A DNA stretch of 19,096 nucleotides, taken from Chloroflexota bacterium (GTDB lineage Bacteria > Chloroflexota > Anaerolineae > Caldilineales > Caldilineaceae). The stretch is taken from assembly GCA_003577005.1 (NCBI GenBank), contig QEUW01000109.1, positions 1-19,096 of the forward strand, given 5' to 3'. The translations under genes and the position numbers were made by a program. This document shows, piece after piece, positions 2,629-18,431 of the stretch (positions within the stretch are counted from its first letter, which is position 1; each line of letters opens with the position of its first letter). The notes under the pieces are model-generated. The model did not search any database. It was given only the letters and a program-made list of their open reading frames with translations, and was not told the origin of the DNA.

Positions 2629-2633
2629 AGCAG

Positions 2634-2668
2634 TAAATGGTCAATTGTCAATCGTCAATTGTGAATGG
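2634..2668 (+). repeat. Heptad array A (cyclase / isomerase gap)
   Basis: Five 7-bp units run without interruption from 2634 to 2668, starting 5 nt after the cyclase stop codon. The units fit TNAATNG; TCAATTG occurs at 2641-2647 and 2655-2661. Because CAATTG is itself palindromic, the two copies can pair across an 8-nt loop, but there is no separate complementary arm as in the other arrays. The array ends before the ribosome site AAGGAG (2685-2690) of the next gene. The same words recur in array F about 14 kb away. Confidence 0.75.
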
Positions 2669-2698
2669 GATTGCGAGGGGCGATAAGGAGATTGCAGG

Positions 2699-3688
2699 AT
2701 GAGAGTGGGACTAGATGCGCACACGTTGCGGTCGCTGAATCTTGATCTGTTGGGTTTGCTTGACCAAACCATTGCCCTGGGCCTGGAGGGGCTCCATTTT
2801 TCGGCCAGAGCCTTGCTCGACCAAGACGAGGCGCAGCGACGCCAGTTTCTGGACAAGGCGCGTGCCCACCACCTGTATCTGGAACTGGTTGGTTATGGCG
2901 TCAATCCCGGCCAGAGCGGCAAGACGGTAGCGGAGATGGTGGAACAGTGGAAGCCACTCTTTCCGCTTGCGGCTGAGATCGGCTCGCCGATCCTCAACAC
3001 CTGTTTTGGCCTTCTCAAAGAGCGCACCTTCACTTCCCCCACCCTGGCCGAACAACTCGAACTGACGAAGACGGTTCTGCGCGAACTCAGCAAAATGGCC
3101 GCCGACTACAACGTAATCGTCACGATGGAGTTGCACGTTGACCTTACCTCCCTGGAGCTGACCCAACTCATCGAAATGGTGGACTCCCCTTACGTGGGTG
3201 TCAATCTGGATACGGCCAATGCGTTGGGCCTGTTGGAGGACCCGCTCGAGGCTGCTCGCAACCTCCTGCCCTATGTCCATACCACCCACTTCAAGGATAC
3301 CTGCATCTACCCGACTGCGGAAGGGTACAACTGGCTGGGCGGGGCGCCGTTGGGGCGTGGTCTGGTCGATCTGCCGGCGATTGTGGAGATGCTCTACACC
3401 GCTAACCCCAACATCAATCTGAACATCGAAGATAGTGGCGGTTTTATCCCGATCCCGCTGTACGACACAGCCTTCCTGGAGAGTTTTGGCGACCTCACCC
3501 CGCAGCGCATGGCGCGCCTGATTCAACATTTGTGGCAGGGCGAGCAACAACTCCGCACTGGCTTGCACCCCCGGCCCGAGGAATCCAAATTGGTCGATTG
3601 GGCGGCGGTCATCCCCGCTCGGCTGCCGTACAATGTGGACTACGCCCGTCGTTTGCGTGATGATGTGGTTGCCCGACACAACACTTAG
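2699..3688 (+). CDS. Sugar phosphate isomerase/epimerase family TIM-barrel protein
   Basis: The 329-residue protein belongs to the AP-endonuclease-2-like (xylose isomerase-like) TIM-barrel group. The likely divalent-metal ligands are E144 (in MELHVDLTS), D171 (in NLDTAN), H197 (in HTTHFKD) and E244 (in NIED), in the usual strand order. The group contains ketose 3-epimerases, inosose dehydratase, hydroxypyruvate isomerase and 3-keto-glycoside lyases. The start at 2699 is supported by AAGGAG 8 nt upstream. It is somewhat longer than the common 260-300 residues because of an acidic/aromatic C-terminal extension (about residues 255-329). It lies in the operon between the cyclase and a Gfo/Idh/MocA dehydrogenase, suggesting it acts on an oxidised sugar intermediate. 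The exact reaction is not assignable. Confidence 0.88.
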   Translation: MRVGLDAHTLRSLNLDLLGLLDQTIALGLEGLHFSARALLDQDEAQRRQFLDKARAHHLYLELVGYGVNPGQSGKTVAEMVEQWKPLFPLAAEIGSPILNTCFGLLKERTFTSPTLAEQLELTKTVLRELSKMAADYNVIVTMELHVDLTSLELTQLIEMVDSPYVGVNLDTANALGLLEDPLEAARNLLPYVHTTHFKDTCIYPTAEGYNWLGGAPLGRGLVDLPAIVEMLYTANPNINLNIEDSGGFIPIPLYDTAFLESFGDLTPQRMARLIQHLWQGEQQLRTGLHPRPEESKLVDWAAVIPARLPYNVDYARRLRDDVVARHNT

Positions 3689-3749
3689 TGAAGAGTGAGG
3701 GGTGATAAGTGAATTTCACTCCTCACTCTTCACTTATCACTCTTCACTG
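3687..3749 (+). repeat. Heptad array B, inverted pair (isomerase / dehydrogenase gap)
   Basis: Nine contiguous 7-bp units: four of form RGTGANN (3687-3714) followed directly by five complementary units of form NTCACTN (3715-3749). The first unit shares two bases with the isomerase stop codon TAG (3686-3688). The arms are reverse complements with a few mismatches and can pair in several registers; the first 12 bases of the left arm match the far end of the right arm exactly. There is almost no loop. The array ends 42 bp before the GAGGA ribosome site of the next gene. Confidence 0.88.
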
Positions 3750-3806
3750 CACTCAATAGGCTTTTGCGATTCGTCAGTCACACAGCAACCAGAGGAACTG
3801 AAAACG

Positions 3807-4862
3807 ATGAACCACTATCGGGTCGGCATCATTGGCTGTGGTCGCATTTCCCGCTTTCATGTCAACGGCTACCGGCGTGTGCCACAAGTGGCGGTGGTGG
3901 CAGGCGCCGAACCGGAACCTACCATCCGTGCTGGCTTTGGCCAGGAGTTTGGCATTTCTGCGCTGTACGCAGATTATCGCGAGATGTTGGCCGAGGAGCC
4001 ACTTGATATCGTCAGTATCTGCACCTGGCCGCCGCTCCACGCCGAGATGGTCTGTGCTGCCGCCGAAGCCGGTGTCAAGGCGATTATTTGCGAGAAACCG
4101 ATGGCCGTGAACCTGCAAGAGGCGGACAGGATGCTTGCAGCGTGCGAACGTTCCGGTACACTGCTGCTTGTCAGCCATCAGCGCCGTTTTCATCCTTGCT
4201 ACCGTACCGCGCGCGATCTGGTTGCCGGTGGCGAGATCGGCGAGTTGGTGCAGGTGCATGGCATCTGTATGGGCGATCTGTTGACCGACGGCACCCACAA
4301 CATTGATCTCTTGCGCTTCTATGCCGGCGACCTGCCGATCAAGTGGGTCTTTGGCCAGATCGACGTCGGCGAAGTCAAGTACCGCTACGGCCACCTGACA
4401 GAAAGAGGCGCTATTGTCCATTTTGAATTTGCCAGTGGCGTGCGCGGCCTCATGGAGCTGGGTTCGGCCGCACCGCGCGCCTATCAGAAAGCCTACTTGC
4501 AAGGCACCAAGGGCCTGATCGAGGTGGGCGGCGATGGCGACCCGCGCCTGAAAGTGCTCCGGCCTGGGCAGGATGAACCGCTCATGATCGAGCCGTCCGC
4601 AGACAGCCCCTTCAGTCCCTTCCAATTCGAGGTCGAAGCGCTGCTCCAATCGTTGGCAGAAGGCGTCGAACATCCGTTGGCGGGCAAACAGGCGCGGGCC
4701 AATCTGGAAGTGTTGATTGCCGCGTTTGAATCTGCCCGGCGTCGTACCGTCGTAGAATTGCCCATCGCCGTCACCGATCACCCGTTGGAAAAGATGATCG
4801 AACAGCTACCCATCGCACCTGAGATCGAGGGGGAACGCCGTAAGCTGCGTCTGGGCGTCTGA
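3807..4862 (+). CDS. Gfo/Idh/MocA family NAD(P)-dependent oxidoreductase
   Basis: The 351-residue protein has an N-terminal Rossmann domain with GIIGCGRIS (7-15), the conserved EKP motif (96-98, catalytic-lysine region) and a C-terminal substrate domain containing GTHNIDLLR (162-170), with the usual active-site histidine at 164. The family oxidises or reduces sugars, inositols and sugar acids, often at C3. The frame is open upstream to 3702, but that stretch is translated heptad array B. The ATG at 3807, 10 nt after GAGGA, begins directly at the nucleotide-binding strand and is clearly the true start. Pairing with TIM-barrel proteins on both sides fits an oxidation followed by isomerisation or elimination. 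Confidence 0.93.
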   Translation: MNHYRVGIIGCGRISRFHVNGYRRVPQVAVVAGAEPEPTIRAGFGQEFGISALYADYREMLAEEPLDIVSICTWPPLHAEMVCAAAEAGVKAIICEKPMAVNLQEADRMLAACERSGTLLLVSHQRRFHPCYRTARDLVAGGEIGELVQVHGICMGDLLTDGTHNIDLLRFYAGDLPIKWVFGQIDVGEVKYRYGHLTERGAIVHFEFASGVRGLMELGSAAPRAYQKAYLQGTKGLIEVGGDGDPRLKVLRPGQDEPLMIEPSADSPFSPFQFEVEALLQSLAEGVEHPLAGKQARANLEVLIAAFESARRRTVVELPIAVTDHPLEKMIEQLPIAPEIEGERRKLRLGV

Positions 4863-4950
4863 GACCAAGACTGCGAGGAGGGGGTAACTGCTTATCTAAG
4901 CGAGGCTGAGTCATTGCAAACAACCGTGGGAACCGAGGAGGAATGGAATC

Positions 4951-5709
4951 ATGGCAGACCTGGATGGCAAAATTGCCCTGGTGACAGGCGCCCGGCGGGG
5001 AATTGGCCGCGGGATCAGCCTCGAGCTTGCCCGTGAAGGCGCCGATGTTGCCATCAACGATGTCGAGGGCCAGGCACAGGCCGAGTCTGTAGCCGAGGAA
5101 GTCCGGGCGTTGGGGCGCCGGGCCATCGTCGTCATGGCGGATGTCGCCAAACCCGACCAGGTGCAGGCGATGGTGGAGCGCGTGGTAGCCGAACTGGGTG
5201 GGTTAGACATTCTGGTCAACAACGCCGGGGTTGAGTCGATCATCCCTGTCCTTGAGATCACACCGGAAGAGTGGGAGCGCGTCACCCATATCAACTTGAA
5301 GGGTGAATTTCTCTGTGCCCAGGCGGCAGCCCGGCACATGGTCGCCACGGGCAACGGCGGGACCATCATCAACATCGGTTCGGTCCAGGCAGGCATGGTA
5401 TTGCCCGGGCGCACCCACTATGCGCCCAGCAAGCGCGCGGTCGAGGCGCTGACCGCCAACCTGGCCGCTGAACTGGCGCCCCACAACATTCGGGTCAACT
5501 GCGTCCACCCCGGCCTGATCGACACCGATATGACCAGTTGGGTGATGAAAGACCCCCACATACTGCCCGTTGTGCTGGACAAAATCGCCCTCAAGCGAGC
5601 GGGCCAGCCCAGTGAGATCGGCCACGCCGTCGCCTTCCTCGCCTCGGACAAGGCCAGCTATATTACAGGGCAGTCGCTGTACGTGGATGGCGGCTTTCGC
5701 ATCTTATGA
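4951..5709 (+). CDS. Short-chain dehydrogenase/reductase (classical SDR, FabG-like)
   Basis: The 252-residue protein shows all classical SDR elements: the cofactor glycine motif TGARRGIG (12-19), NNAG (90-93) and the catalytic S144, Y157 and K161 (YAPSK). The C-terminus ends in the common YVDGGF pattern. Annotation pipelines would call this FabG or glucose 1-dehydrogenase. In this sugar cluster an alcohol/ketone step on a sugar or sugar acid is more likely than fatty-acid synthesis. D37, in INDVEG at the end of the second strand, is compatible with NAD preference. A strong AGGAGG (4936-4941) precedes the ATG by 9 nt. The 88-bp gap before it holds no heptad array. Confidence 0.94.
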   Translation: MADLDGKIALVTGARRGIGRGISLELAREGADVAINDVEGQAQAESVAEEVRALGRRAIVVMADVAKPDQVQAMVERVVAELGGLDILVNNAGVESIIPVLEITPEEWERVTHINLKGEFLCAQAAARHMVATGNGGTIINIGSVQAGMVLPGRTHYAPSKRAVEALTANLAAELAPHNIRVNCVHPGLIDTDMTSWVMKDPHILPVVLDKIALKRAGQPSEIGHAVAFLASDKASYITGQSLYVDGGFRIL

Positions 5710-5710
5710 G

Positions 5711-5788
5711 CGTAGAACGTAGAGCGTAGAACGTTGGAACGTCCTCGACATGCTCTTTTGTTCTACGTTCTGCATTCTGCGTTCTCCG
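5711..5788 (+). repeat. Heptad array C, inverted pair (SDR / IolE-like gap)
   Basis: Starting 2 nt after the SDR stop, three exact 7-bp units of form CGTAGAR (5711-5731) are followed by an 8-nt variant. After a spacer of about 21 nt come four complementary units of form TTCTNCR (5761-5788). CGTAGAA and TTCTACG are exact reverse complements, so the arms can form a stem. The array ends just before the AGGGGGG ribosome site of the next gene. Confidence 0.85.
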
Positions 5789-5804
5789 TTCAGGGGGGAC
5801 AACG

Positions 5805-6656
5805 ATGAAAATCGGTCACACTGGAATCACCTGGGGCATCCCGGGTGATGTGGAGCAGGCATACTGCGACACTGCCGAACTAGGCTATCTTGGCTTCGAG
5901 ACCTTTGCCCGGACGATTCAGGCGTGGAACGAGAAGCCAGGGGGGTATCGCAGCCTGGTTGAGCGCTATGGCATCCCCACCGGCGCTGCGTATTGCTATA
6001 AAGAGTGGATCGACCCTGCTACCGCGCAGGAAGAGCTGGAAGCCGCCCAACGCGAAGCGGATGCGTTGCGCGAACTATCCGGCAGCAGCACATTGGTCGT
6101 ACAGGGGGGGCGCCGGCCCGCTGGCGGGTACACGATGGATCAGTTCCAGCGTCTTGCAGATGCGCTCAATGCGGTCGGTGAATATTGCCGCAGCCTGGGT
6201 CTGGCGGTGGGGCTGCACCCGCACACGGGCACGGCCATCGAAACCCGCGCCGACATCGACACCATTCTTGAGTTGGTCGACCCGGCGCTGGTCGGCTTTG
6301 CGCCCGATACAGGGCAGATCGCCAAAGGGGGCAGCGATATCCTCGAAGTGTTGCGCACCTACCGTGATCGCATTGTGCATGTCCATCTGAAAGACTGGAA
6401 CGGCAAGTACGAGCGAGATCCAGCAGGCAAAGAGATCGATGCCAGCGGATATGTAAATTACGAACCAGTGGGGAACGGTGTGCTGCCCATGCCGGCCATC
6501 CTGGGGATTCTTACGGGTGGTAACAGCTTTAGCGGCTGGATCAACGTAGAGCTGGATGGTACGGCGAATGCCCCCCGCCCCCCGCGGGAGGCAGCGGCAA
6601 TGAGTCGCCGGTATCTGGGAGAAGTGTTGGGGGATCGGGTTGCCTGGCGGGTGTAG
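5805..6656 (+). CDS. IolE-like TIM-barrel protein (sugar phosphate isomerase/epimerase family)
   Basis: The 283-residue protein resembles inosose dehydratase (IolE) more than the gene at 2699 does. It has HPHTGTAIET (138-147), PDTGQIAKGG (167-176) and HVHLKDWNG (192-200). Predicted metal ligands are E146, D168, H194 and E249. IolE dehydrates 2-keto-myo-inositol. However, related proteins act as epimerases or 3-keto-glycoside lyases, and the other iol genes are absent here, so the specific name is withheld. The ATG at 5805 follows a purine-rich AGGGGGG at about 7 nt. It is the last gene before the promoter region of the transporter genes. Confidence 0.88.
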   Translation: MKIGHTGITWGIPGDVEQAYCDTAELGYLGFETFARTIQAWNEKPGGYRSLVERYGIPTGAAYCYKEWIDPATAQEELEAAQREADALRELSGSSTLVVQGGRRPAGGYTMDQFQRLADALNAVGEYCRSLGLAVGLHPHTGTAIETRADIDTILELVDPALVGFAPDTGQIAKGGSDILEVLRTYRDRIVHVHLKDWNGKYERDPAGKEIDASGYVNYEPVGNGVLPMPAILGILTGGNSFSGWINVELDGTANAPRPPREAAAMSRRYLGEVLGDRVAWRV

Positions 6657-6695
6657 GCCGGGCGCCGGGCCATTGTTGCTGCGCCAACACGGCGA

Positions 6696-6724
6696 TAGAC
6701 ACCCGTTTGCGCCTGTGATATACT
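6696..6724 (+). promoter_or_regulatory. Candidate sigma-70 promoter for the sugar ABC transporter genes
   Basis: TAGACA (6696-6701) and TATACT (6719-6724) each match five of six consensus positions and are separated by 17 bp. The site is in the 221-bp gap before the binding-protein gene, implying that the transporter can be transcribed separately from the upstream enzymes. The predicted leader is about 145 nt long and carries the palindromes listed next. Confidence 0.55.
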
Positions 6725-6798
6725 CTGAACTGCCACAGCCGCTCCTACTGTGCGCGACTCCCTTGTTCGTGTTGAGATGATGCTTCCCATCCGTTGGT

Positions 6799-6830
6799 GT
6801 GTACACGTCTAATTTGTGTCCTGTATACAG
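6799..6830. promoter_or_regulatory. Two palindromes in the transporter leader (possible operators)
   Basis: GTGTACAC (6799-6806) and CTGTATACAG (6821-6830) are perfect palindromes with centres 23 bp apart, about two helical turns. GTATAC/GTAC-centred palindromes are typical of several GntR/FCD operators, so these are candidate sites for the cluster regulator or another repressor. They differ from the ATCGAT-cored palindromes at 1144-1163, which argues against one protein recognising both. Confidence 0.4.
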
Positions 6831-6877
6831 CAGCGATATCGTTTCACCGATTTGCTTTTTCACAAGGAGGAACTATG

Positions 6878-8350
6878 ATGAACAGATTGAGCCGCCGTGG
6901 CTTCTTGCAAGTCTCCGGCCTGACCATCACCGGGGCGCTGTTAGCTTCCTGTGTGCCCGCTGGAGGCCAACAGGGCGCTGCGCCGCAAGCGGCAGGCGAG
7001 CCGGCAGCCGGTGGCATGAGCGGTCACCTCCAACTTTGGGTGCAGGCATATACGCCCACCGAGAGCATGGAGCAGGGCCCCAACAACCCGATTCCCCACA
7101 ACATGATCGAGGTGCTTGCCGACGAATATATGGAGTCGCACCCAGGGGCGGAACTCGAGATCATCCGCAAGCCGGCCAATGTGGCTGACCACGAGTGGAT
7201 CGTCACGCAGCAGGCCGGCGGCACTATCCCCCATATCGTCTGGTCCCATTCGTTCTGGATTCAGGACGAACTCGACAAGGGCTGGTGGGTCGCCCTCGAC
7301 CCCTACTTCGACCAGCCCAATCCCTATGTCGAGGCGGGCCAGCCGGGCAGCGAGCGCTGGCTCGACCAGTTCTACGAGATCCCGACTGAGGCCAAGCGTC
7401 TGCAGGACGGAAAGCTCTATGTCGTTCCGATTGACCTGGTGACGACTTTCTTCTTTTACAACAGGGATATCTTTAACGAGGCCGGCGTCGAACCACCCAC
7501 AACCTATGGTGAATGGATCGAAACCCAGACCAAGCTGCAAGATTTTGGCGTGATTCCGAACGCGCGCCTGGTCTGGTATCAATCGCAGATTGGCGCCATG
7601 CTCTACGCCAAGAAAGAGGAGGCGATCAACAAGGATGGCGGTGTTGCCTCGCTCCAGGAAGTGGCCTGTGCGATAGAGACGGAGCTGTACCGCGCCACCA
7701 ATCCGGAGTTCGTCGAGTGGATGAACATGAGCAAGAATCTGATCCAATACCTGGCGCCGGATTGGGCAGCGGCGAACACCGATTTCAACCGCAAATTCCT
7801 CAACAAAGAGGTCGCAGTCTTTGAAGATGGCAGTTGGCGCTTTGGCTCGTTGAAGGCAGACCCGCTGGTAGATTTCGAATGGGGCAGTTTTTATGCGCCC
7901 ACCATTACGGAGCAAGATTCCCCCTTTGCCACCGGTCGAGCCGCACCCCCCATCGGCGGCGCCACGGCTGCCCAATGGGCCGTCTCTACCCGCTCAGAAC
8001 GAGATGGCATCCTGCCGCTGGTGATCGACTTCCTGCGCTTTGTCACTGCGCCGCAAAATGCCAATCGCTTGATCAGCGAACTGGGCCAGTTCTTGCCCAA
8101 TATCAAGGGTGTGGATGTGAACCCTGACCTCAAAGAGCCGCTCCGCGCTATCACGGAAGGGTTGGGCGAGGCCGGCATGGTCACCTACCCCGACAAGATC
8201 GGCACTGAGCAGCGCGAAAAGATCGCCCAGGTGTGGACAGATTTCCATCTGGATCAGATCACACAGGAAGAGGCCCAGCAACAGATCGATGCACTGATGA
8301 CTGAATACGCTACCAAGGCGATTGCCGATAATGGGTGGACATGTGAGTGA
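6878..8350 (+). CDS. Sugar ABC transporter substrate-binding lipoprotein (Tat-exported)
   Basis: The 490-residue extracellular solute-binding protein (family 1, CUT1 type) starts with a twin-arginine signal SRRGFLQ, then a hydrophobic stretch and a lipobox ending LLASC, so it should be exported folded and lipid-anchored. A low-complexity Gly/Ala/Gln linker follows. ATG codons occur in tandem at 6875 and 6878. AAGGAGG (6864-6870) gives 4-nt or 7-nt spacing, and the second is chosen for better spacing. An upstream in-frame GTG at 6794 is rejected because it would bury the signal peptide. It captures the substrate for the two permeases that follow. The ligand is not deducible. Its stop codon lies within heptad array D. 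Confidence 0.94.
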   Translation: MNRLSRRGFLQVSGLTITGALLASCVPAGGQQGAAPQAAGEPAAGGMSGHLQLWVQAYTPTESMEQGPNNPIPHNMIEVLADEYMESHPGAELEIIRKPANVADHEWIVTQQAGGTIPHIVWSHSFWIQDELDKGWWVALDPYFDQPNPYVEAGQPGSERWLDQFYEIPTEAKRLQDGKLYVVPIDLVTTFFFYNRDIFNEAGVEPPTTYGEWIETQTKLQDFGVIPNARLVWYQSQIGAMLYAKKEEAINKDGGVASLQEVACAIETELYRATNPEFVEWMNMSKNLIQYLAPDWAAANTDFNRKFLNKEVAVFEDGSWRFGSLKADPLVDFEWGSFYAPTITEQDSPFATGRAAPPIGGATAAQWAVSTRSERDGILPLVIDFLRFVTAPQNANRLISELGQFLPNIKGVDVNPDLKEPLRAITEGLGEAGMVTYPDKIGTEQREKIAQVWTDFHLDQITQEEAQQQIDALMTEYATKAIADNGWTCE

Positions 8351-8425
8351 TGCGTGATGCGTGATGCGTAATGCGTGGTGCGTGGCGGAAGAACTGTGAA
8401 TTACGCATCACGCATCACGTATTAC
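8347..8425 (+). repeat. Heptad array D, strong hairpin (binding protein / permease gap)
   Basis: Three exact GTGATGC units (8347-8367) are followed by variants GTAATGC and GTGGTGC to about 8388. After a 12-nt spacer comes a complementary arm of NTNACGYA-like units (8401-8428). Bases 8354-8371 and 8401-8418 are perfect reverse complements over 18 bp. Extended to 8347-8371/8401-8425, the RNA stem is 25 bp with only two G-U pairs, around a 29-nt loop. The binding-protein stop codon TGA (8348-8350) is inside the stem, and the permease ribosome site AAGGAG (8436-8441) lies 10 nt beyond it. Confidence 0.93.
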
Positions 8426-8446
8426 ACACCAAACCAAGGAGCCGCC

Positions 8447-9406
8447 ATGACACAAAAAGTGCAGACTTCGGGTTTTGCTGCGGTTGTCGGTGCGCAACCG
8501 GCGCCGGCCCGGCGCCAGGCCGGTCTCTGGTCGCGTATCTACCAATACCGGTATGTGTACTTGATGCTGGTGCCGACCTTTGCGCTCCTGTTGACCTTCA
8601 ACTACTATCCCGCCTTTATGGGCCTCTACCGCTCGTTTTTTGTGTGGGATGTGGGGTTGCCGGCGCAGTTTATTGGTCTCGGCAATTTTATCAAGCTCTT
8701 CACCGAAGACACGGTCTTCCAGAAATCACTGGTCAACGTGAGCCTCCTGACGTTGTGGCGGGTCGTCAGCGGAGTGACGATTCCGTTCCTGGTTGCCGAA
8801 TTGATCTTCAACTTGCGCAACCAGGTCTCCCAGTATACCTATCGCGTGCTCATGATTCTGCCGGCTGTAGTGCCCGGTATTGTGCATTTGCTGCTTTGGC
8901 AGTTCATCTACGATGGCACACATGGTCTGCTCAACGCCATTCTGGCCGGCGTTGGCTTGGAAGAATGGAAGCAACCGTGGCTGGGCAACCCAAAGACCGC
9001 GCTCTATGCCGTGATCTTTATGGGGTTTCCGTGGGTCTCCGGCGTGACGGTGTTGATCTATCTGGCTGGTCTGCAGGGTATTTCGCGCGAGGTGATCGAC
9101 AGCGCACAGGTAGATGGCTGCACCGGGTTGCGCCGAATCTTTGCTATTGACGTGCCGCTGATCATGGGGCAGCTCAAGCTGATCACTGTGCTTTCCATCA
9201 TTGGCGGCTTGCAGAGTTGGGTCGGCATTTTTGTGATGACAGAAGGGGGACCGGGCACGGCCAGCATGGTGCCAGGGCTGTGGATGTACAACAACGCGTT
9301 TCTGTGGAACAAGATGGGTTATGCGTCGGCGATCGGCATGATTCTCTTCCTGCTGATCTTTGCCCTTACCTTGTTCAACATGAAGTTTGTCAAAAGCGAG
9401 CTCTAG
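8447..9406 (+). CDS. Sugar ABC transporter permease (MalF/UgpA-like, CUT1)
   Basis: The 319-residue inner-membrane permease has about six membrane segments; the first is at residues 35-55. The cytoplasmic EAA loop that docks the ATPase is at about 217-238 (EVIDSAQVDG then DVPLI), a slightly divergent version of the consensus. The ATG at 8447 is chosen because AAGGAG lies 5 nt upstream; an earlier GTG at 8375 is inside heptad array D. It forms the channel together with the next permease, whose gene begins 3 nt after this stop. No ATPase gene is present in the operon. Confidence 0.95.
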   Translation: MTQKVQTSGFAAVVGAQPAPARRQAGLWSRIYQYRYVYLMLVPTFALLLTFNYYPAFMGLYRSFFVWDVGLPAQFIGLGNFIKLFTEDTVFQKSLVNVSLLTLWRVVSGVTIPFLVAELIFNLRNQVSQYTYRVLMILPAVVPGIVHLLLWQFIYDGTHGLLNAILAGVGLEEWKQPWLGNPKTALYAVIFMGFPWVSGVTVLIYLAGLQGISREVIDSAQVDGCTGLRRIFAIDVPLIMGQLKLITVLSIIGGLQSWVGIFVMTEGGPGTASMVPGLWMYNNAFLWNKMGYASAIGMILFLLIFALTLFNMKFVKSEL

Positions 9407-9409
9407 ACT

Positions 9410-10297
9410 ATGGCTTACGTATCGAGTGAAGAGCGCTCACTGGTGGCGCAACCGAACACTAGCCTGGCGGGCCTGCGCCAGCTCTGGCGGCGTGGGGACT
9501 GGTATCGACACTTGATCCTGTTGATCATTTCATTTCTGATGTTTTTGCCGTTTGTGATCACGTTGATCATTTCGTTCAAGAGCATTCCCCAGTTCAACCA
9601 CGAGCCATTTTGGCTTACCTTTCCCATGCACCCGGAAAACTACAAAGATGCATGGCGCGTGGTCTCGAAGTACATTTTGAACAGCATAATCGTCAGCGGC
9701 GGTTCGGTGATCGCTATGGTAGCGCTGGCGGCGCTGGCGGCCTGGGCGTTTGCTCGTTACCCGTTTCCAGGACGCGAGTTCTTTTTCTATCTGATCCTGG
9801 CCTTGCTCATGATCCCCGGCGAGTTGACGCTCATCCCGTCGTTTCTGCTGGTGAAGGACCTGGGGCTGCTCAACACACACTGGGTGTTGATCCTCCCCTA
9901 CATCGCCGGCGGTCAGGTTTTTGCCATCTTTATTCTGCGCTCTTTCTACCAGAGTATGCCGGAAGAGATGTTTGAAGCGGCGCGAATCGATGGCGCGCAG
10001 GAATTGCAGATCTTGCTCCGCATCGCCATCCCGCTCTCGAAATCGATCCTGGGCGTAGTGGCGATCATGCACATCTTGAGCACCTGGAACGACCTGATCT
10101 GGCCGTTGGTGACGCTCTCGACCGATAAGCTAATGACTTTGACCATCGGGCTCTATGCCTTCCGCACCGCCTGGTATAGCATTTGGGGGCCACTTATGGC
10201 CGGCTACGTGCTGGCGTCGATCCCGCTGATCATTTTGTTTGCCTTTACCAGCCGCCTTTTCGTGGAGGGTCTCAGCTCCGGTGCGATCAAGATGTAG
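9410..10297 (+). CDS. Sugar ABC transporter permease (MalG/UgpE-like, CUT1)
   Basis: The 295-residue partner permease has six predicted membrane segments (first at about 35-56) and a canonical EAA loop EAARIDGA (189-196) followed by IAIPLS. The start ATG is 3 nt after the preceding permease stop and has no clear Shine-Dalgarno sequence, so translation is probably coupled. It should dimerise with the 8447 product to form the translocation pathway, powered by an ATPase encoded elsewhere. Confidence 0.95.
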   Translation: MAYVSSEERSLVAQPNTSLAGLRQLWRRGDWYRHLILLIISFLMFLPFVITLIISFKSIPQFNHEPFWLTFPMHPENYKDAWRVVSKYILNSIIVSGGSVIAMVALAALAAWAFARYPFPGREFFFYLILALLMIPGELTLIPSFLLVKDLGLLNTHWVLILPYIAGGQVFAIFILRSFYQSMPEEMFEAARIDGAQELQILLRIAIPLSKSILGVVAIMHILSTWNDLIWPLVTLSTDKLMTLTIGLYAFRTAWYSIWGPLMAGYVLASIPLIILFAFTSRLFVEGLSSGAIKM

Positions 10298-10305
10298 GGG
10301 TGGCG

Positions 10306-10347
10306 CGTAATGTGTAATGCGTGATCGGTAACACATGACACGCAGTG
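10306..10347 (+). repeat. Heptad array E, degenerate (permease / FtsX gap)
   Basis: CGTAATG, TGTAATG and CGTGATC run head to tail (10306-10326) from 8 nt after the permease stop. They are followed by a decayed complementary stretch (10331-10343) that can pair imperfectly with the left arm (GCGTAATGTGT against ACACATGACACGC). The words overlap those of array D. It is the most degraded member of the family. The remaining bases to 10383 show no ribosome site. Confidence 0.6.
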
Positions 10348-10383
10348 CAACTGGTAGCGTGATTTTCGGACTTTGTAACGCTT

Positions 10384-13296
10384 GTGTCGCTTTATACGCT
10401 CTATGCTTCGCTGACGTATTGGCCGCGGACCTATGCCGGCCTTTGGAAAATTGCTGCCAGCCGTCTGCTCTATGACCCTCTGCTGGCGTTGTGCCTGCTG
10501 GCGGGGTGGACGATCGCCATCGCCCTCACCGCCGCCCTCCCCATGTACACCGACGCCGTCAATCACGCCTTGCTTGGCTACGAGTTGCAGAGCGAATCGC
10601 AAGGCCGCCGGCGGCCGGCGTTTGGCTTCCTCTATCATTTTGTTGGCAGCTCCAGCGGCGGCGCCGACCAGGATCGCTATGCCGCCTTGCAGCAATATAT
10701 GGCCACCGGGCTCACCTCGGACCTGGGATTGCCCCTCAAAGCCCACATGCATGTGGTGAAGAGCGACCTTTTTCAAGTCTTCCCCGCTGCCGCCGGCACC
10801 TACCAGATGCGCGACCAACCACTGCTGCGCGGCTACCTGGGCTTTGTCGAGCAACTGTTCAGCCAGATCACCATCGTCGAGGGCCGGGCGCCAGCACCCG
10901 CTGCCGGGCCCGATGAGCCAATCGAGGTTCTCATCAGCCGGGACCTGGCGTTTGAGGCGGGTATGCAGGTGGGGGAAGTCTACGTGCTGTTCGATCCGGG
11001 GGGCGCGTCTCCGAACGGCCCGCGGCCGCAATTGCAGATCCCGGTGCGTGTTGCCGGGCTGTGGGAAGCGAGCGACGCCGGGGACGGGTTTTGGTATATT
11101 TCGCCCGCTGCCTTTGCCAATGTTTTTCTGGTGCCGGACGAGACCTATTTTGGCGTAATTGTCGCGACTGTACCGCACGCCTTGTACGATCTGGTCTGGT
11201 ATTACAGCTTCAACGGAGAACGGGTCCGCGCCGAGCATGTACCGAGCTTTTTGGAACGGGTGAACCGGGTGTATGCCCGTGTGAATGCGCTCCTGCCCAA
11301 TACCTACCTTGAGCTCTCACCGGGTGAGGCGTTGAGCCGCTATCAGCGGGCGACGTCGGCCCAGGCGATCCTGTTGTTGGTCTTTGGCATCCCTGTGTTG
11401 GGTCTTGTGCTCTACTTTATCATGCTGATCGCCGACAGCAGTGTGCAACGCCAACGGCTCGAAATTGCCACGCTCAAGAGCCGTGGGGCCAGCAGCGGGC
11501 AAGTCTTGGGCACCTACCTGTTACAGGCAGGGCTGATTGGTCTGGTGGCGCTGGTTGCCGGTTTGCAGGTTGGACGCTGGCTGGCCCAGTTGATCGGGAG
11601 CGCCCAGCATTTTTTAGCCTTCCAGCTCCAGACATCACTCCAGGTATACATCACAAACAACAGCCTGCGCTATGCGCTGCTTGCGCTCTTGCTGGCGCTG
11701 GCCGCCACTGTTCTGCCGACAGTGAGTGCGGCGCGCACGACTATCGTCTATGCCAAGCAGGAGGTAGGTCGCCCGCGCCACCGGCCCTTCTGGCAGCGCT
11801 TCCTGGTCGATGTGCAACTTCTTGCGGCGTCCGGTTATGGCTACTATTTGCTGCAAGGGCAGGGGCGCATCGCCTCGCTCGAATTAGGAGGGACGGGCGA
11901 TCCGCTCTCCAACCCCATCCTCTTTCTGGCGCCGACGCTCTTTATCTTTGCCGCGACCCTCTGCTGTGTGCGTCTTTTTCCACTCTTTATCCGCCTGTTG
12001 AGCTGGCTTTCGGCGCGCTTCAACGGGCTTTCTCTCTTGCTGGCGCTGCGTAACCTGGCGCGCGCCAGCCACGCCTACGCTGGTCTATTGCTCTTGTTGA
12101 TTTTGACAACCAGTCTGGGCACGTTCACAGCGTCGATGACGCGTACGCTGGACGAGAACCTGGTTGCTCGCATCTTCTACCAGGTTGGGGCCGATGTGGT
12201 GTTGACCGAAGGGGTGGGCGTGGCGACGCTTGCAGAGGAGGGCGGAACGAAGGCTGGCACCGCTGCGGCAGAATTGCCGACCGTGTGGGTCAATCTTCCG
12301 GTGGACGACCATCGTCGGGCGCCGGGGGTCGTGGGGGTGGCGCGCATGGGGAGATTCAAGGTATCTACCCAACAAGGCAACCAATTGATCACCGGCACAC
12401 TCTATGGAACCGACCGCATCGGCTTTGCGCAGACAGCCTATTTCCGCCGCGATTTTGCCGCACAGCCGCTGGGTAGCCTCATGAATGCGCTGGCGCTGGA
12501 GTTTTCGGGGGTGATTGTCAGCCAATCTTTTCTCGACACAGCTCACCTCCAGGTGGGTGATACGCTGGCCCTGCGCGGCCTTGTCCCCACCAGCAGCCAG
12601 GCGGTCAACTTTACCATCGTGGGCAGTGTCGAACTCTTTCCCACGGCTTATCCCAAAGACGGACCGGTCTTTGTGGCCAATCTCGATTACATCTTCAGCG
12701 AGTTAGGTCAAGAGTTGCCGTACAAGGTTTGGCTGTCGGTGGAGGATGGGGTTGACATGGACCAATTGACCGAATCGCTCGATGCCCTGGGGTTCAAAGT
12801 GCTGGCCGTGGAAGAGACCGACAAGCTGATCGCTGCGACTCAAAGGCAACCGACGCGGGTCGGCTTGTTTGGCTTTCTTTCCGTCGGCTTTATCACTACA
12901 ACGCTCCTAAGCATGTTGACGCTGGTCATTTACGCTGTACTGTCCTACCGCCAGCGCTTTATCCAACTGGGCATTCTGCGCGCCATTGGCCTGGCGCGGG
13001 GACAGTTGGCGCTCTGGCTGGGGAGCGAACAGATCGTCGTCACATCGCTAGCGATCCTGGCCGGCGTCTACCTGGGCTTGCTGGCCAGCCACCTCTTTAT
13101 CCCCTTCTTGCAGATCGGCTACAGCGAGACCGAGCTGGCGCCGCCGTTTATTGTGACAATCGCCTGGGACGACGTAATTATGATCGTTGTGGCGCTGTTC
13201 AGCGCCACGTTGCTGACTACAGTGGGCATGGTCGGCGTTCTCATGCGGCTCCAAGCCTCCAAGGCCGTTAAACTAGGTGAGGTGCTGACAGCGTGA
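10384..13296 (+). CDS. Large FtsX-family ABC transporter permease
   Basis: The 970-residue protein has the double-FtsX layout. One N-terminal membrane helix (about 33-53) is followed by an extracytoplasmic domain (about 55-320) and a first FtsX block (about 327-450, with a cytoplasmic motif around RLEIATLKSRGAS). Extra helices lie near 513-530 and 563-583, then a second extracytoplasmic domain (about 585-825). The second FtsX block is at 830-955, with RFIQLGILRAIGLARG. Such permeases (MacB/LolE-like) drive lipoprotein, peptide or lipid extrusion with a LolD-type ATPase, which is not in the window. The GTG at 10384 is the only usable start after an in-frame stop (10360-10362), and no Shine-Dalgarno sequence precedes it. 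It is unrelated in mechanism to the sugar importers and may be read through from them. Its cargo is unknown. Confidence 0.88.
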   Translation: MSLYTLYASLTYWPRTYAGLWKIAASRLLYDPLLALCLLAGWTIAIALTAALPMYTDAVNHALLGYELQSESQGRRRPAFGFLYHFVGSSSGGADQDRYAALQQYMATGLTSDLGLPLKAHMHVVKSDLFQVFPAAAGTYQMRDQPLLRGYLGFVEQLFSQITIVEGRAPAPAAGPDEPIEVLISRDLAFEAGMQVGEVYVLFDPGGASPNGPRPQLQIPVRVAGLWEASDAGDGFWYISPAAFANVFLVPDETYFGVIVATVPHALYDLVWYYSFNGERVRAEHVPSFLERVNRVYARVNALLPNTYLELSPGEALSRYQRATSAQAILLLVFGIPVLGLVLYFIMLIADSSVQRQRLEIATLKSRGASSGQVLGTYLLQAGLIGLVALVAGLQVGRWLAQLIGSAQHFLAFQLQTSLQVYITNNSLRYALLALLLALAATVLPTVSAARTTIVYAKQEVGRPRHRPFWQRFLVDVQLLAASGYGYYLLQGQGRIASLELGGTGDPLSNPILFLAPTLFIFAATLCCVRLFPLFIRLLSWLSARFNGLSLLLALRNLARASHAYAGLLLLLILTTSLGTFTASMTRTLDENLVARIFYQVGADVVLTEGVGVATLAEEGGTKAGTAAAELPTVWVNLPVDDHRRAPGVVGVARMGRFKVSTQQGNQLITGTLYGTDRIGFAQTAYFRRDFAAQPLGSLMNALALEFSGVIVSQSFLDTAHLQVGDTLALRGLVPTSSQAVNFTIVGSVELFPTAYPKDGPVFVANLDYIFSELGQELPYKVWLSVEDGVDMDQLTESLDALGFKVLAVEETDKLIAATQRQPTRVGLFGFLSVGFITTTLLSMLTLVIYAVLSYRQRFIQLGILRAIGLARGQLALWLGSEQIVVTSLAILAGVYLGLLASHLFIPFLQIGYSETELAPPFIVTIAWDDVIMIVVALFSATLLTTVGMVGVLMRLQASKAVKLGEVLTA

Positions 13297-13403
13297 GCGC
13301 ACAGGCGTTGGCGCCAGGGTGTCTGTACGGCGGTGAAAAAGGGGAAACGACCGGTTCAGCCCTCTCGTCATTCTGCTCTCTTGTCTCCTGCCACCCCACC
13401 GGC

Positions 13404-14324: not shown

Positions 14325-14398
14325 TAAGTAACGCACCCATCGGATTACGGCGTAGAACAAGATGGCATCTTGGCCTACACACGGGAAGGTTCATCAAA

Positions 14399-14467
14399 TG
14401 GGCAGCTGGCATTGGATGGTGGGGAGCCAATATGACAAAGCGGGGGCCACCCAATGCCAGCTGCCCA
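14399..14467 (-). terminator. Strong hairpin after the Gfo/Idh/MocA gene (terminator-like)
   Basis: Bases 14399-14415 and 14451-14467 are perfect reverse complements over 17 bp (core GGCAGCTGGCATTGG). Inside, GGTGG (14418-14422) and CCACC (14447-14451) offer an alternative extended pairing. It begins 6 nt past the stop of the leftward sugar operon, which is where a terminator is expected. The following minus-strand sequence has only a short T run (TTTG), so it may be a non-canonical terminator or an mRNA 3'-end stabiliser. Confidence 0.55.
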
Positions 14468-14472
14468 GCAGG

Positions 14473-15522: not shown

Positions 15523-15603
15523 GAGTCGCCTCCACGGTGTTTGATATTTTCATTCTTTGCTTCAATCACCACCAAGATCGGCGCTCGAATAAAGACAGAT
15601 GGA

Positions 15604-16407
15604 TCATAAGCCTCGCGCTCGCAGGAATTCCACAGACGCGCGCGCCACCGCATCTGGATCAGCTGGGTCGGGCGGAAGCTCTACAATAAGCGGCCCATTG
15701 TAGCCGATCTCGCGCAGGGCAACCAGGGAGACATCAAAATCGACGGCGCCCGCACCCAGCCGGCGTTCGCTGCGGTTCTCTGGGTTCCAGTCTTTGACAT
15801 GGCAGAGCGTTGCCCGCCCCTTGGCGGCGCGCACCTCGGCGGCGGGGTCCATCCCGCCGCTGGTGGAGTTGCCCACGTCCAGGTAGATGCCCAGCGCTTT
15901 GGAGCCACCGCAGGCATCGATCATCTCCAACAGCCTGGCGGTGTCGAAGAGGAATGGTTTGCCCACGGCCTCAAGAGCCAGCGTCACGCCCGCCTGTTCG
16001 GCGCGGGCGACGCCATGCATGACGCCGTCGCGGAAGAGCTCCCACTTGTTTTCCGGTGATTCGTCCTGGTCGCAGCCGGGGATGAGCACGGCGGTCGCGC
16101 CCAGGTCGGCGGCCAGGTTGATGGCGTCCCAGATCAGGCTGATGCCGATGTCGCGGATACGTGGGTCAGGGCTGGCCAGATTGAAGACCCAGTGGGCGTT
16201 GAGGCAGAGCGAGGTGAGGGCGACACCCGCGTCTTCCGCCTGCTTGCGGAGTGCGGCACGGGCTGCGGTGTCGAGCCGCTGGGTCCAGAGCGCGTTGGCG
16301 TCGATGTTGACCTCCAACGCCGCCGCACCCACACGCGCCGTCGCCTCCACCTTCTGCCCCGGCGACCAGGTTGCGGGAAAAATGCCAAAATTGAGTCCGA
16401 TGTTCAT
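15604..16407 (-). CDS. TIM-barrel sugar isomerase/epimerase family protein
   Basis: The 267-residue compact AP-endonuclease-2-like barrel has metal ligands predicted at E146 (ALEAVG), D177 (YLDVGN), H203 (CHVKDWN) and E243 (IVELPP), the arrangement of ketose 3-epimerases and IolE-type proteins. Starting at MNIGLNFG places beta-strand 1 at the very N-terminus, so the ATG at 16407 is confident. No Shine-Dalgarno sequence precedes it: heptad array F runs directly up to the start codon. It is encoded between the permeases and a Gfo/Idh/MocA protein, so it probably acts on the imported sugar or its keto form. Confidence 0.9.
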   Translation of the reverse strand: MNIGLNFGIFPATWSPGQKVEATARVGAAALEVNIDANALWTQRLDTAARAALRKQAEDAGVALTSLCLNAHWVFNLASPDPRIRDIGISLIWDAINLAADLGATAVLIPGCDQDESPENKWELFRDGVMHGVARAEQAGVTLALEAVGKPFLFDTARLLEMIDACGGSKALGIYLDVGNSTSGGMDPAAEVRAAKGRATLCHVKDWNPENRSERRLGAGAVDFDVSLVALREIGYNGPLIVELPPDPADPDAVARASVEFLRARGL

Positions 16408-16525
16408 AGTGAGAATTGTGAATTGTGAACGGGGAATTGTGAATTATAAATGTAAATAGCAACCATCCAGCCGGGCACTCCCTCGTTAGCCATTGACAAT
16501 TGACCATTCACCATTGACCATTGCC
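16408..16525 (-). repeat. Heptad array F, two blocks (permease / isomerase gap)
   Basis: In transcription order the first block (16525-16491) has five 7-bp units built on TCAATGG/TGAATGG/TCAATTG and touches the permease stop codon. After about 34 nt without clear repeats, the second block (16456-16408) has seven units, chiefly TCACAAT, and ends at the ATG of the next gene. The second block's reverse complement (ATTGTGA) matches the first block's words at 10 of 12 bases over the best stretch, so pairing is imperfect. It shares words with array A. Confidence 0.85.
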
Positions 16526-17424
16526 TAGCCTTTGACGCCGGAGATAACGATGCCCTGGATGAACTTGGCCTGGGCGATGTAAAAGACAATCAGCACCGGG
16601 ATCAGCGCGACGACTGTCATGGCCATCGTTTCAGGGATGCGCTGTGATTGTTGGGTCTGGAAGAGGCGCAGGCCGATGGCGATGGTGAAGTTTTTGGGCT
16701 CATTCAGGTAGATCAAGGGGTCAAAAAAGTTGTTCCAGTTCCAGGCAAAGGCCTGGATGGCAATCACACCCAGCGCTGGCTTGGAGAGCGGCATAAGGAT
16801 ATTCCAGTAGATGCGCAGCCAACCGGCGCCGTCGATGCGGGCGGCGTCGTCCAGTTCGGTATTGATGCTCATAAAGAACTGGCGCAACAGGAAGACGTTG
16901 TACGCGTTGGTCAGCCATTGGGGGACGATCAGCGGCCAGAAGGTGTTGACAGCACCCAACGTCGCCCAGAACAGATAGATCGGGATCAACGTCACCTGGC
17001 TGGGCAACATCATCGTCGCCAGGAGAATAATAAAGATCGTATTGCGCATCCAAAAGCGGATACGGGCAAAGCCAAAGGCCACCAGCGAACTGGAGAACAC
17101 CAGCCCAATAATATTGACCACTGTAATAAAGGCCGTATTCGCATAGAACGTGGCAAAGGGGAGTACATTCCACCCCCTGGAATAATTGTCCCAACGGGGT
17201 TCAGGCGGGATCCAGACAATCGGGATCTGGTAGACAAGCCCTTCAGGTTTGAGCGAAGTAGAGATCATCCACAAAAGTGGGGCTGAAAAAACAATGGCAC
17301 CAGCCGCCAATACAAGATAGAGCAAAATACGACCAATCATATAGCCGGTCTTGGCCCAAATCGCCGTCCAGTTTGTTCCACCCGGGGTTGTGGCTGCGGG
17401 ATAAGCCTTGCTCTGTGTGGTCAT
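16525..17424 (-). CDS. Sugar ABC transporter permease (MalG-like, CUT1)
   Basis: The 299-residue permease has six predicted membrane segments (first at about 31-55) and an EAA loop DDAARIDGAG (192-201) followed by ILMPLSK. The ATG at 17424 overlaps the preceding permease's TGA by 4 nt (ATGA). GGAGAG just upstream lies within that gene, so translation is coupled. An earlier in-frame start at 17454 is not needed. It pairs with the 17421-18356 product. Confidence 0.95.
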   Translation of the reverse strand: MTTQSKAYPAATTPGGTNWTAIWAKTGYMIGRILLYLVLAAGAIVFSAPLLWMISTSLKPEGLVYQIPIVWIPPEPRWDNYSRGWNVLPFATFYANTAFITVVNIIGLVFSSSLVAFGFARIRFWMRNTIFIILLATMMLPSQVTLIPIYLFWATLGAVNTFWPLIVPQWLTNAYNVFLLRQFFMSINTELDDAARIDGAGWLRIYWNILMPLSKPALGVIAIQAFAWNWNNFFDPLIYLNEPKNFTIAIGLRLFQTQQSQRIPETMAMTVVALIPVLIVFYIAQAKFIQGIVISGVKG

Positions 17425-18356
17425 TTCTTCAACTCTCCTTCGTAGTAGACCCAAGACTCAGACGAACGCACGACCAGGATCGTAAAGACCATGATGACCA
17501 GGAAGAGCGCCCAGGCCAACGCCGAAGCGTAGCCAAATTGAAAGTCGAGGAACCCCTTGCGGTAGAGATACAACACCTGAGTCAGTGTGGCATTGTTGGG
17601 CCCACCGCCCGTCATGACATAAGACTGGGTAAAGACCTGGAAGGAGGCGATGATATTGATGAGCAAGTTGAAGTAGATGGTCGGCGTCAGCATGGGGATG
17701 GTGATGTGCCAGAAGCGGCGTAAAGAGTTGGCGCCGTCGATCTCGGCAGCTTCGTACAGTTGGGTAGGAATACCCTGAAGACCGGCCAGGTAGAGCAACA
17801 TCGCACCGCCGGCCCCCCACAACCCCATGATGATCAAGCCGGGAACGGCCCAATCTTCCGAGTAAAGCCAGCGCGGCCCTTCGATGCCCATTTGCCGCAG
17901 CGTCACGTTGATCAAGCCAAAACGGGGATTGAGCACAAAACCCCACAAGACGGCTACTGCCACACCTTGAACGATAGACGGCAAGTAAAAGAGCGTTCGC
18001 CACGTGCCAAGCAATGCCACCTTCTGGTTCATCAACAGCGCAATGATGAGCGAAATGATGATACTGGTGGGCACGAGTGCAAAGGTATAGTACGCCGTCA
18101 CCCACAAAGATTTCCAGAACAACGGATCATTCCACATACGTACAAAGTTATTCACCCCGATGAACCGGTATCCGGTGAGGAGATCGGTTTCGGTGAGGCT
18201 GATCCCTAGCGAGAAAAGCATGGCAAATGCGATCAAGCCAAAAAAATGAATCAGCCATGGGGTAATAAAGAGAAACCCGGCGATGTTATCGCGCGTTCGC
18301 TGGGTTATCCGCCGGCGGGGCACCACCGGGCGACCGATGCTGGTCTGCACGCTCAT
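17421..18356 (-). CDS. Sugar ABC transporter permease (MalF-like, CUT1)
   Basis: The 311-residue permease has a basic cytoplasmic N-terminus (RPVVPRRRITQRTRD), six predicted membrane segments (first at about 25-50) and a canonical EAA loop YEAAEIDGANS (201-211) followed by ITIPML. The ATG at 18356 has GAAGGA 8 nt upstream. The frame extends upstream to 18410, but that stretch is the right arm of array G. No ATPase gene is seen nearby. Confidence 0.95.
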   Translation of the reverse strand: MSVQTSIGRPVVPRRRITQRTRDNIAGFLFITPWLIHFFGLIAFAMLFSLGISLTETDLLTGYRFIGVNNFVRMWNDPLFWKSLWVTAYYTFALVPTSIIISLIIALLMNQKVALLGTWRTLFYLPSIVQGVAVAVLWGFVLNPRFGLINVTLRQMGIEGPRWLYSEDWAVPGLIIMGLWGAGGAMLLYLAGLQGIPTQLYEAAEIDGANSLRRFWHITIPMLTPTIYFNLLINIIASFQVFTQSYVMTGGGPNNATLTQVLYLYRKGFLDFQFGYASALAWALFLVIMVFTILVVRSSESWVYYEGELKK

Positions 18357-18375
18357 AGCAACTATCCTTCTCAAA

Positions 18376-18431
18376 AGAGATTGAGAGATCAAGAGCACAA
18401 AGTCTCTCAACCTCTCAATCTCTCAACCTCT
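18376..18431 (-). repeat. Octad array G with inverted arm (binding protein / permease gap)
   Basis: In transcription order, three and a half 8-bp units of form AGAGRTTG (18431-18404) start 4 nt after the binding-protein stop. After a spacer comes a complementary arm at 18387-18376. The 12-bp stretches at 18412-18423 and 18376-18387 are perfect reverse complements with 24 nt between them. It has the same architecture as the heptad arrays but an 8-bp period. It occupies the same genetic position as array D. Confidence 0.85.

Follow-up and report, generated by a model that had tools for sequence, protein, structure and literature searches.

How can tandem arrays that are built from different words come to share one period and one position after genes? 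This question was raised by a 19,096-nt stretch of Chloroflexota DNA (contig QEUW01000109.1; hereafter, the window), in which an initial annotation had described 7-bp (once 8-bp) tandem units in seven gaps between genes. Cyanobacteria, Beggiatoaceae, and Xanthomonas are rich in heptamer repeats, and slippage is the usual answer to the question of their origin. Our comparison of the window with related genomes revealed one-armed and two-armed (self-complementary) forms of such arrays within a single bacterial family, the two-armed form accompanying one clade among the repetitive extragenic palindrome (REP)-associated tyrosine transposases (RAYTs). With a probability of roughly 55%, we consider these elements to be intergenic palindromes of Caldilineaceae that resemble REPs and REPINs (REP doublets forming hairpins), have stems that slip in heptad steps, and were once mobilised by a RAYT of this clade. 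The origin of heptad repeats, and the way in which REP families gain new sequences, thereby become testable.

The arrays of the window stood out clearly from its background. Seven self-matching segments (score ≥12) were found at lag 7, compared with none at lags 4-6 and 9-13 and one at lag 8, and the harmonic lags 14, 16, and 21 gave five, one, and two segments, respectively; in 200 first-order resamples of the window, the mean number of lag-7 segments was 0.005 and the maximum 1. Arrays in all seven gaps were thus borne out, the one at 10306, which fell below threshold in both Tandem Repeats Finder (TRF) and the lag-7 scan, by eye alone. All seven gaps lie between co-directional genes, and the upstream stop codons are situated 0-8 nt from the array edges, just as annotated. 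A second, complementary arm had been claimed for six of the seven gaps. It was clear in five (3687, 5711, 8347, and 16408 by DNA alignment; 18376 by folding), weak at 10306, and absent at 2634, where the array is one-armed, so that the count is five to six of seven; an inverted partner accompanied six of the seven lag-7 segments. A search of the window against Rfam gave no match at the gathering score, and among 72,556 plasmid records, three matched the 8344 array partially and none matched the 3684 array. The individual elements are listed in Table 1.

Table 1. Heptad and octad elements of the window, with their arms, neighbouring stop codons, TRF arrays (period 7 unless stated) and RNA fold z-scores (position of the fold in brackets).
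Element	Position	Strand	Arms and stop codon	TRF arrays	Fold z-score
One-armed heptad array, words GTCAATT/GTCAATC	2636..2666	+	7 nt past TGA 2626-2628	2636-2666	-2.2 (2629)
Two-armed heptad hairpin, words RGTGANN	3687..3748	+	Best paired arms 3687-3705, 3716-3734; overlaps TAG of gene 2699-3688	3715-3748	-6.7 (3687)
Two-armed heptad hairpin, CGTAGAA/CGTAGAG	5707..5792	+	Arms 5707-5734, 5765-5792; begins at TGA of gene 4951-5709	5711-5734, 5760-5791	-5.9 (5708)
Two-armed heptad hairpin, GTGATGC/GTAATGC	8343..8429	+	Arms 8343-8372, 8400-8429; TGA of upstream gene (8348-8350) inside first arm	8347-8384, 8403-8419	-6.4 (8344)
Short degenerate heptad array CGTAATG TGTAATG CGTGATC, weak second arm	10306..10347	+	8 nt past TAG 10295-10297		-1.1 (10295)
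Two-armed heptad element, GTCAATG/GTGAATG (minus strand) vs GAATTGT (plus strand)	16414..16522	-	Arms 16414-16444, 16492-16522; arm alignment score 17	16413-16445, 16490-16523	+0.7 (16408)
Octad (period 8) hairpin GAGAGGTT/GAGAGATT	18376..18431	-	Arms about 18403-18424 and 18376-18396	18404-18431 (period 8)	-4.7 (18370)

The elements are dispersed, polar, located at the 3' ends of genes, often inclusive of the stop codon, and scarce in divergent gaps. These properties were examined among the 46 genomes of a family search (G001-G046, G001 including the 5.95-Mb chromosome OX638330.1), in which genes were picked as hexamer-scored open reading frames (ORFs) and with no standard gene finder, so that starts are approximate and stops exact for the picked ORFs. 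The period-7 excess that the initial annotation had proposed to look for in relatives was found: 1.18 Mb sampled from genome G043 contained 197 arrays at lag 7, of which 169 were intergenic. Lag 6 gave 10 arrays, every one of them within a predicted ORF, and lag 8 gave 26. An inverted partner lay within 160 nt of 116 of the 197 lag-7 arrays; in the first 75 arrays, 40 had such a partner, compared with 1 of 75 when the flanks were random, and 91 neighbouring array pairs included 64 inverted and 4 direct ones. Altogether, this sample held 106 two-armed elements made of many words. The 5' arm was G-rich rather than C-rich by 102 to 2 in G043, in every gap type, by 34 to 0 in G036, and by 4 to 0 in the window, which indicates that orientation belongs to the palindrome and not to the genes; the constant orientation noted earlier therefore holds as palindrome polarity (a G-rich 5' arm) but not as gene orientation. 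Where the two arms differed in their content of the motif GTNR, the 5' arm had more of it in 75 of 86 cases, and in 39 of 54 among non-heptad palindromes, with no fixed GTAG tag.

Placement was equally uneven. Divergent gaps, which make up 26% of the gap bases of G043, held 7 of the 157 arrays with both neighbours known (P = 2e-12). In co-directional gaps (n = 103), 64% of the arrays lay within 10 nt of the upstream stop and 11% within 10 nt of the downstream start, uniform placement predicting 29% for each; in convergent gaps (n = 23), 91% lay within 10 nt of a stop, compared with 52% under uniform placement. The stop codon of the gene was inside the array in 27 of 69 stop-abutting cases. Provision of stop codons in all frames was considered as a function and rejected: such stops occurred in 34 of the 69 arrays in sense and 4 in antisense, but in 17 and 12, respectively, of 54 arrays that lie 0-60 nt after a stop and do not contain it, the bias arising because arrays supply the stop of the gene. 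Within loops, a GTYRAC-like motif was modestly enriched (2.8 vs 0.9 per kb). By eye, some loops of G043 hold inner octad arms or a GC-rich REP-like stem, and at L118:6406-6627 and L120:8580-8739, heptad arms surround inner inverted arms of period 8 or of other words, some of them nearly perfect, in a nested-looking arrangement.

The initial annotation had also proposed a search for a linked REP-type transposase, and this search identified one clade of RAYTs. Matches to PF01797 were present in 20 of the 46 genomes. A single clade (tree support 100/97) contributes one full-length gene to each of 16 genomes, with 41-100% identity to P0001, G028 carrying a broken fragment besides its full-length copy; NF047646 scored above its cut-off in both members scanned. 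A heptad array lay within 250 nt upstream of the gene in 8 of the 16 (words GCGTATT, ACGCACT, GATGCGT, and TTTTGCC), or in 9 if G036 is counted, where a copy of the 33-copy hairpin described below lies upstream but under the automatic threshold. Downstream arrays were found in 1 of 16, and elsewhere in these loci there was 1 in 36 kb. No heptad array occurred within 250 nt on either side of other RAYTs, in 14 of the family or 24 of the phylum; looser limits (450 nt, score 9) brought up two weak arrays near other RAYTs (L227 and L268). The upstream excess was significant against the 38 other RAYTs (Fisher P = 1e-5), against the 14 (P = 0.003), and against the downstream side of the clade itself (P = 0.016), although related genomes share words and the independent cases therefore number about five. 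The gene upstream of the clade RAYTs, which we take to be alaX-like, ends alike in many members. Among 20 RAYT-like loci, 10 had a palindrome without heptads, GC-rich or of another kind, no more than 250 nt away, two REP-like ones occurring in L160 (a palindrome in L212 that consisted of N was excluded). Most clade members (L242-L257) keep an open frame despite lost catalytic residues and could represent a candidate domesticated transposase. Separately, inverted heptad arms, TTCTGGTTTCTG...CAGAAACCAGAA, stand on both sides of a RAYT from a different group at L160:12165-13882 (G043) and in L214 (G031); the arms in L160 are about 1.7 kb apart, like terminal inverted repeats, and enclose GC-rich REP-like palindromes.

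Two-armed arrays were commonest in genomes with the clade RAYT, the gene of which often has an array directly upstream, and we regard this as an association. None of 15 arrays in G001-G004, which lack the clade, had an inverted partner, whereas 7 of 9 in G036 and, as given above, 116 of 197 in G043 did (P = 3e-6; the G036 sample is 151.7 kb with three chosen contigs left out, and a run of G and C alone, at the end of L001, was excluded from the counts). Whole-genome tallies of the AGTGR pattern, in which overlapping matches were counted and two-armed matches, being self-complementary, were taken on one strand, gave a two-armed to one-armed ratio of 153 to 431 for the 16 clade-bearing genomes and of 62 to 2,951 for the 30 without it. 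G021, the one carrier of the clade RAYT that is rich in the AGTGG vocabulary, scored 31 to 102, and the 16 genomes without the clade that share this vocabulary scored 49 to 2,913. The two-armed GCGTRAT pattern had a single match in G029, a single match in G036, and none in the remaining 44 genomes; it is too strict to serve as a test. A fourfold GTNANNN pattern, which matched in 39 of the 46 genomes, was set aside as unspecific and kept as a guide only, since its built-in control also fits these arrays.

Copied cores were evident in relatives. In G036, the 18-nt loop ATCAAATGACCTTTTTCA was present 33 times when a single mismatch was allowed, 18 of these matches being exact; outside this genome, G021 had one match and the remaining 44 genomes had none. 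In the 27 copies that were read (at most two mismatches), GTGA-type heptads flank the loop in arms of about two to eight units (by eye), and the arms differ in the order and number of units, their ends being variable. A shared loop between differing arms indicates that the core was copied while the arms turn over. With respect to genes, 12 of these copies run with them and 8 against, 2 are in convergent gaps, 1 is in a divergent gap, 1 is in a predicted ORF, and 3 are at contig ends; in most, the upstream stop adjoins the arm. Because part of the G036 sample consisted of contigs selected for their known matches, its density is not a random estimate. In the G001 clade, the arrays sampled have a single arm; a conserved stretch with CACAAGGGAGG precedes nine heptad stretches there, and its CTGCAG border lay near only 6 of 15 scored arrays. 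The statement that the arrays are not one copied element accordingly stands for the seven words of the window, but not for relatives, in which such arrays are attached to copied cores. An element that carries a heptad tail (TGGTCAG), TGCACAAGGGAGGGCCGAAGGCCCGACCGC..AACTGCAG, is dispersed in the G001 clade (e.g., at L061:940, at L008:20527, and, on the minus strand, at L064:13506), and in G003, arrays lie near the very start of several contigs, as if assemblies break there.

Comparison of orthologous gaps, another of the proposed checks, revealed both gain and whole-heptad change, and the arrays have been gained lineage by lineage. The gap between the permease and FtsX-like genes, which carries the 10306 array in the window, is 11 nt long and array-free in 10 of 10 relatives. 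No counterpart of the 5711 array was seen in 14 distinct orthologous gaps (by eye; ten also in the lag-7 scan). The gap between the genes of the solute-binding protein (SBP) and the permease is occupied by GTGATGC words in the window. In four of the loci L001-L011, namely L001, L004, L006, and L009, arrays of the TAGTTTT or TAGTTGT type adjoin the same stop codon, and G021 has a two-armed CAGTGGC array in this gap (L087; by eye). The length of the gap was 186, 193, or 200 nt in 11 of 15 listed rows, that is, in one-heptad steps, a clear array being visible in some but not all of the 11. These arrays and gap lengths show one slot filled with different words in different lineages, with length changing in whole units. 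Slippage, one of the options raised at the outset, is therefore supported for the number of units, since orthologous gaps differ by whole heptads.

In the account that we favour, a founder hairpin with heptad stems would have been copied into gene ends by the clade RAYT through HUH/Y1 single-strand transposition. The stems would then have grown, shrunk, and changed word through heptad-step slippage within each arm, leaving each old site with its own word while palindrome and period were kept. A RAYT without its catalytic tyrosine would go with an old population of diverged loops, and one that kept the tyrosine with a young one-loop family, as in G036, the RAYT of which retains both HUH and tyrosine (the DYI tyrosine being position 115 in an alignment of the G036 protein with E. 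coli TnpArep, 4ER8). The genome of the window itself would presumably carry a clade RAYT. As for the period of seven, a polymerase-footprint idea of Mrazek is cited in PMC4679880.

Several observations weigh against this account. Within the clade, the position-115 tyrosine is lacking in 12 of 16 RAYTs and a histidine of the HUH motif has been lost in 5, a serine standing between the histidines in 5 more; the presence of an upstream array needs six gains or losses on the RAYT tree, and the gene is not placed between two inverted elements, unlike classical REP-RAYT units. The presence of the clade is confounded with phylogeny, because 16 of the 30 clade-less genomes share one vocabulary and a mostly one-armed style, and the partnerless 15 arrays come from four of these 16. 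Individual genomes also disagree: in G022, which has no clade member, two-armed and one-armed matches numbered 13 and 21, and G035 carries the clade, with no array in 171 kb. G043 is very rich in two-armed elements but uses other words, and its score for both two-armed patterns, AGTGR and GCGTRAT, is zero; the tallies therefore see only part of the elements. Most loops of G043 are unrelated: among loops of at least 25 nt from its 106 elements, 28 pairs matched at E < 0.01, compared with 1 in shuffles, and part of these stem from nested arrays. Non-heptad palindromes of G043 are likewise polar (75 to 9), and the SBP-to-permease gap, which has no RAYT, carries arrays of different words in several lineages. 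Mobility of the elements is a prediction.

Other explanations must account for the same features. The arrays could be plain heptanucleotide simple sequence repeats, generated by slippage between genes and kept only where harmless, with inverted arms that are incidental or derived from short inversions. We consider this a possible but rather unlikely origin. The 7-nt steps of orthologous gaps and the abundant one-armed arrays in 16 genomes without the clade RAYT fit it well, and the two arms have words in common, with no clear agreement in how their variant units are ordered (mid-rank 0.431; P = 0.07). Slippage alone, however, does not produce an inverted second arm, and the frequency of inverted partners in G043 and in the window, the polarity of 102 to 2, the loop family of G036, and the conserved stretch that precedes one-armed arrays at nine places in the G001 clade all argue against it. 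The second arm would follow naturally if one arm grew by heptad duplication and the other were rewritten from it by template switching during replication, a process documented for quasipalindrome correction (PMC3820800). Site-specific words with matched arms and unique loops would thus be accounted for, but the shared loops of G036 would be left unexplained. Template switching also predicts mirrored order of the variant units; a first, positive test of this mark was biased by cutting the arms at their best alignment and was discarded, the fair test giving P = 0.07, and we regard such an origin as improbable.

Selection for intercistronic RNA hairpins that act in mRNA processing, stability, or termination would agree with the position after the stops of co-directional genes, the avoidance of divergent gaps, and the strong RNA folds in four of the seven window gaps. 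The same arm polarity was nevertheless observed in convergent and divergent gaps, and the excess of G.U pairs expected from RNA-level selection did not appear: sense-strand transition mismatches numbered 58 G.T vs 78 A.C (20 vs 31 when counted as elements), so that wobble asymmetry lends this idea no support. We therefore doubt that RNA-level function explains the arrays. A reverse transcriptase that copied heptads off a short RNA template, the other option raised by the initial annotation, would explain why the period is constant while words change. This source is not needed and appears very improbable, since a single genome contains many different words and RVT_1 (PF00078), matched in 22 of the 46 genomes at E ≤ 0.001, has no match at that level in G036, the genome with the clearest family. 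A bolder proposal retains the RAYT: heptad hairpins would be the natural substrate of the clade, with each heptad an equivalent GTNR-like tag that can be cut and rejoined at any unit, so that arms grow, shrink, and swap words in 7-nt steps under a constant grammar, each gene end acquiring its own word; the enzyme, which has a fixed chromosomal location and often lacks its tyrosine, would be kept for a different role, such as binding or shaping hairpins at gene ends. We offer this as a speculative and unlikely extension.

The genes of the window provide the context for these comparisons. Ten window proteins were scanned, among them a GntR regulator, a cyclase, dehydrogenases, xylose-isomerase-like TIM barrels, and an FtsX-like permease; on our own reading, the genes at the array gaps also include parts of ATP-binding cassette (ABC) transporters. 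Relatives of the protein encoded at 2699-3688 were found on 11 genome contigs, belonging to 10 Caldilineaceae metagenome-assembled genomes (71-74% identity) and 1 other of Chloroflexi (53%), and the source organism is, judging from such protein matches, Caldilineaceae-like. Orthologues of eight of nine tested genes from 1906-13296 were present in the loci of relatives in a different order (about 70-82% protein identity; FtsX-like, about 55%), which indicates that this gene group has been rearranged, and no orthologue of gene 3807-4862 was found in those loci.

REPs and heptamer repeats had been named as the nearest relatives of the arrays, and our comparison agrees with this placement. Heptad-stem palindromes, or such repeats in Caldilineaceae, were undescribed among the literature matches listed, a coverage in which subscription journals are mostly outside. 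Short tandemly repeated repetitive sequences (STRRs) are the heptamer repeats of cyanobacteria. With them and with long simple sequence repeats, the arrays share a tandem structure, a mostly intergenic location, and variation by whole units, but a systematic inverted arm, as in the present arrays, is not known from those classes. Heptamer direct repeats of TAACTGA have been described in Beggiatoaceae, Cyanobacteria, and Bacteroidetes (PMC4679880), and GGGNATC repeats in Xanthomonas and Nostoc, where they lie between aligned ORFs and within 50 bp of stop codons, with no general link to mobile elements found (PMC4692102). In the accessible text of both papers, these repeats resemble ours in their 7-bp units, mostly intergenic location, and 7-nt length steps between strains, and the GGGNATC repeats also in their closeness to stop codons; they differ in being described as direct (one indirect TAACTGA repeat is reported), palindromic arms being absent from the descriptions compared. 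Classical miniature inverted-repeat transposable elements have constant ends, whereas the arm ends of the G036 copies vary. TIRYTs and TIRtrons, in which a RAYT gene has terminal inverted repeats that bear no relation to REP (PMC3733652), resemble the bracketed RAYTs of L160 and L214, but the inverted repeats there are heptad arrays, and the cases are two.

The closest comparison is with REPs and REPINs associated with RAYTs, including the GTAG REPs (PMC3733652 and PMC2817692). The earlier contrast, according to which REPs do not combine constant position and orientation, was too strong, because REPs do combine position near genes with palindromic polarity (PMC3733652). The elements differ from REPs in that their stems consist of tandem heptads or octads with many words per genome and mostly unique loops, and in that an element accompanies the RAYT on its upstream side alone, in roughly half of the genomes, the enzyme often lacking its catalytic tyrosine. 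Copies in G036 share the loop and GTGA units, whereas loops in G043 are mostly unrelated. We do not claim full REP membership, because two-sided flanking of the RAYT failed and the observed copies leave a shared tag undecided; the elements nevertheless work like REPs. Both are short palindromes that often supply the stop codon, are associated with a RAYT clade (with an abundance that, for the present elements, may follow its presence between genomes), occur as many dispersed copies per genome (106 in G043 and 33 loop copies in G036, the window showing seven sites), and are placed near the 3' ends of ORFs in co-directional and convergent gaps.

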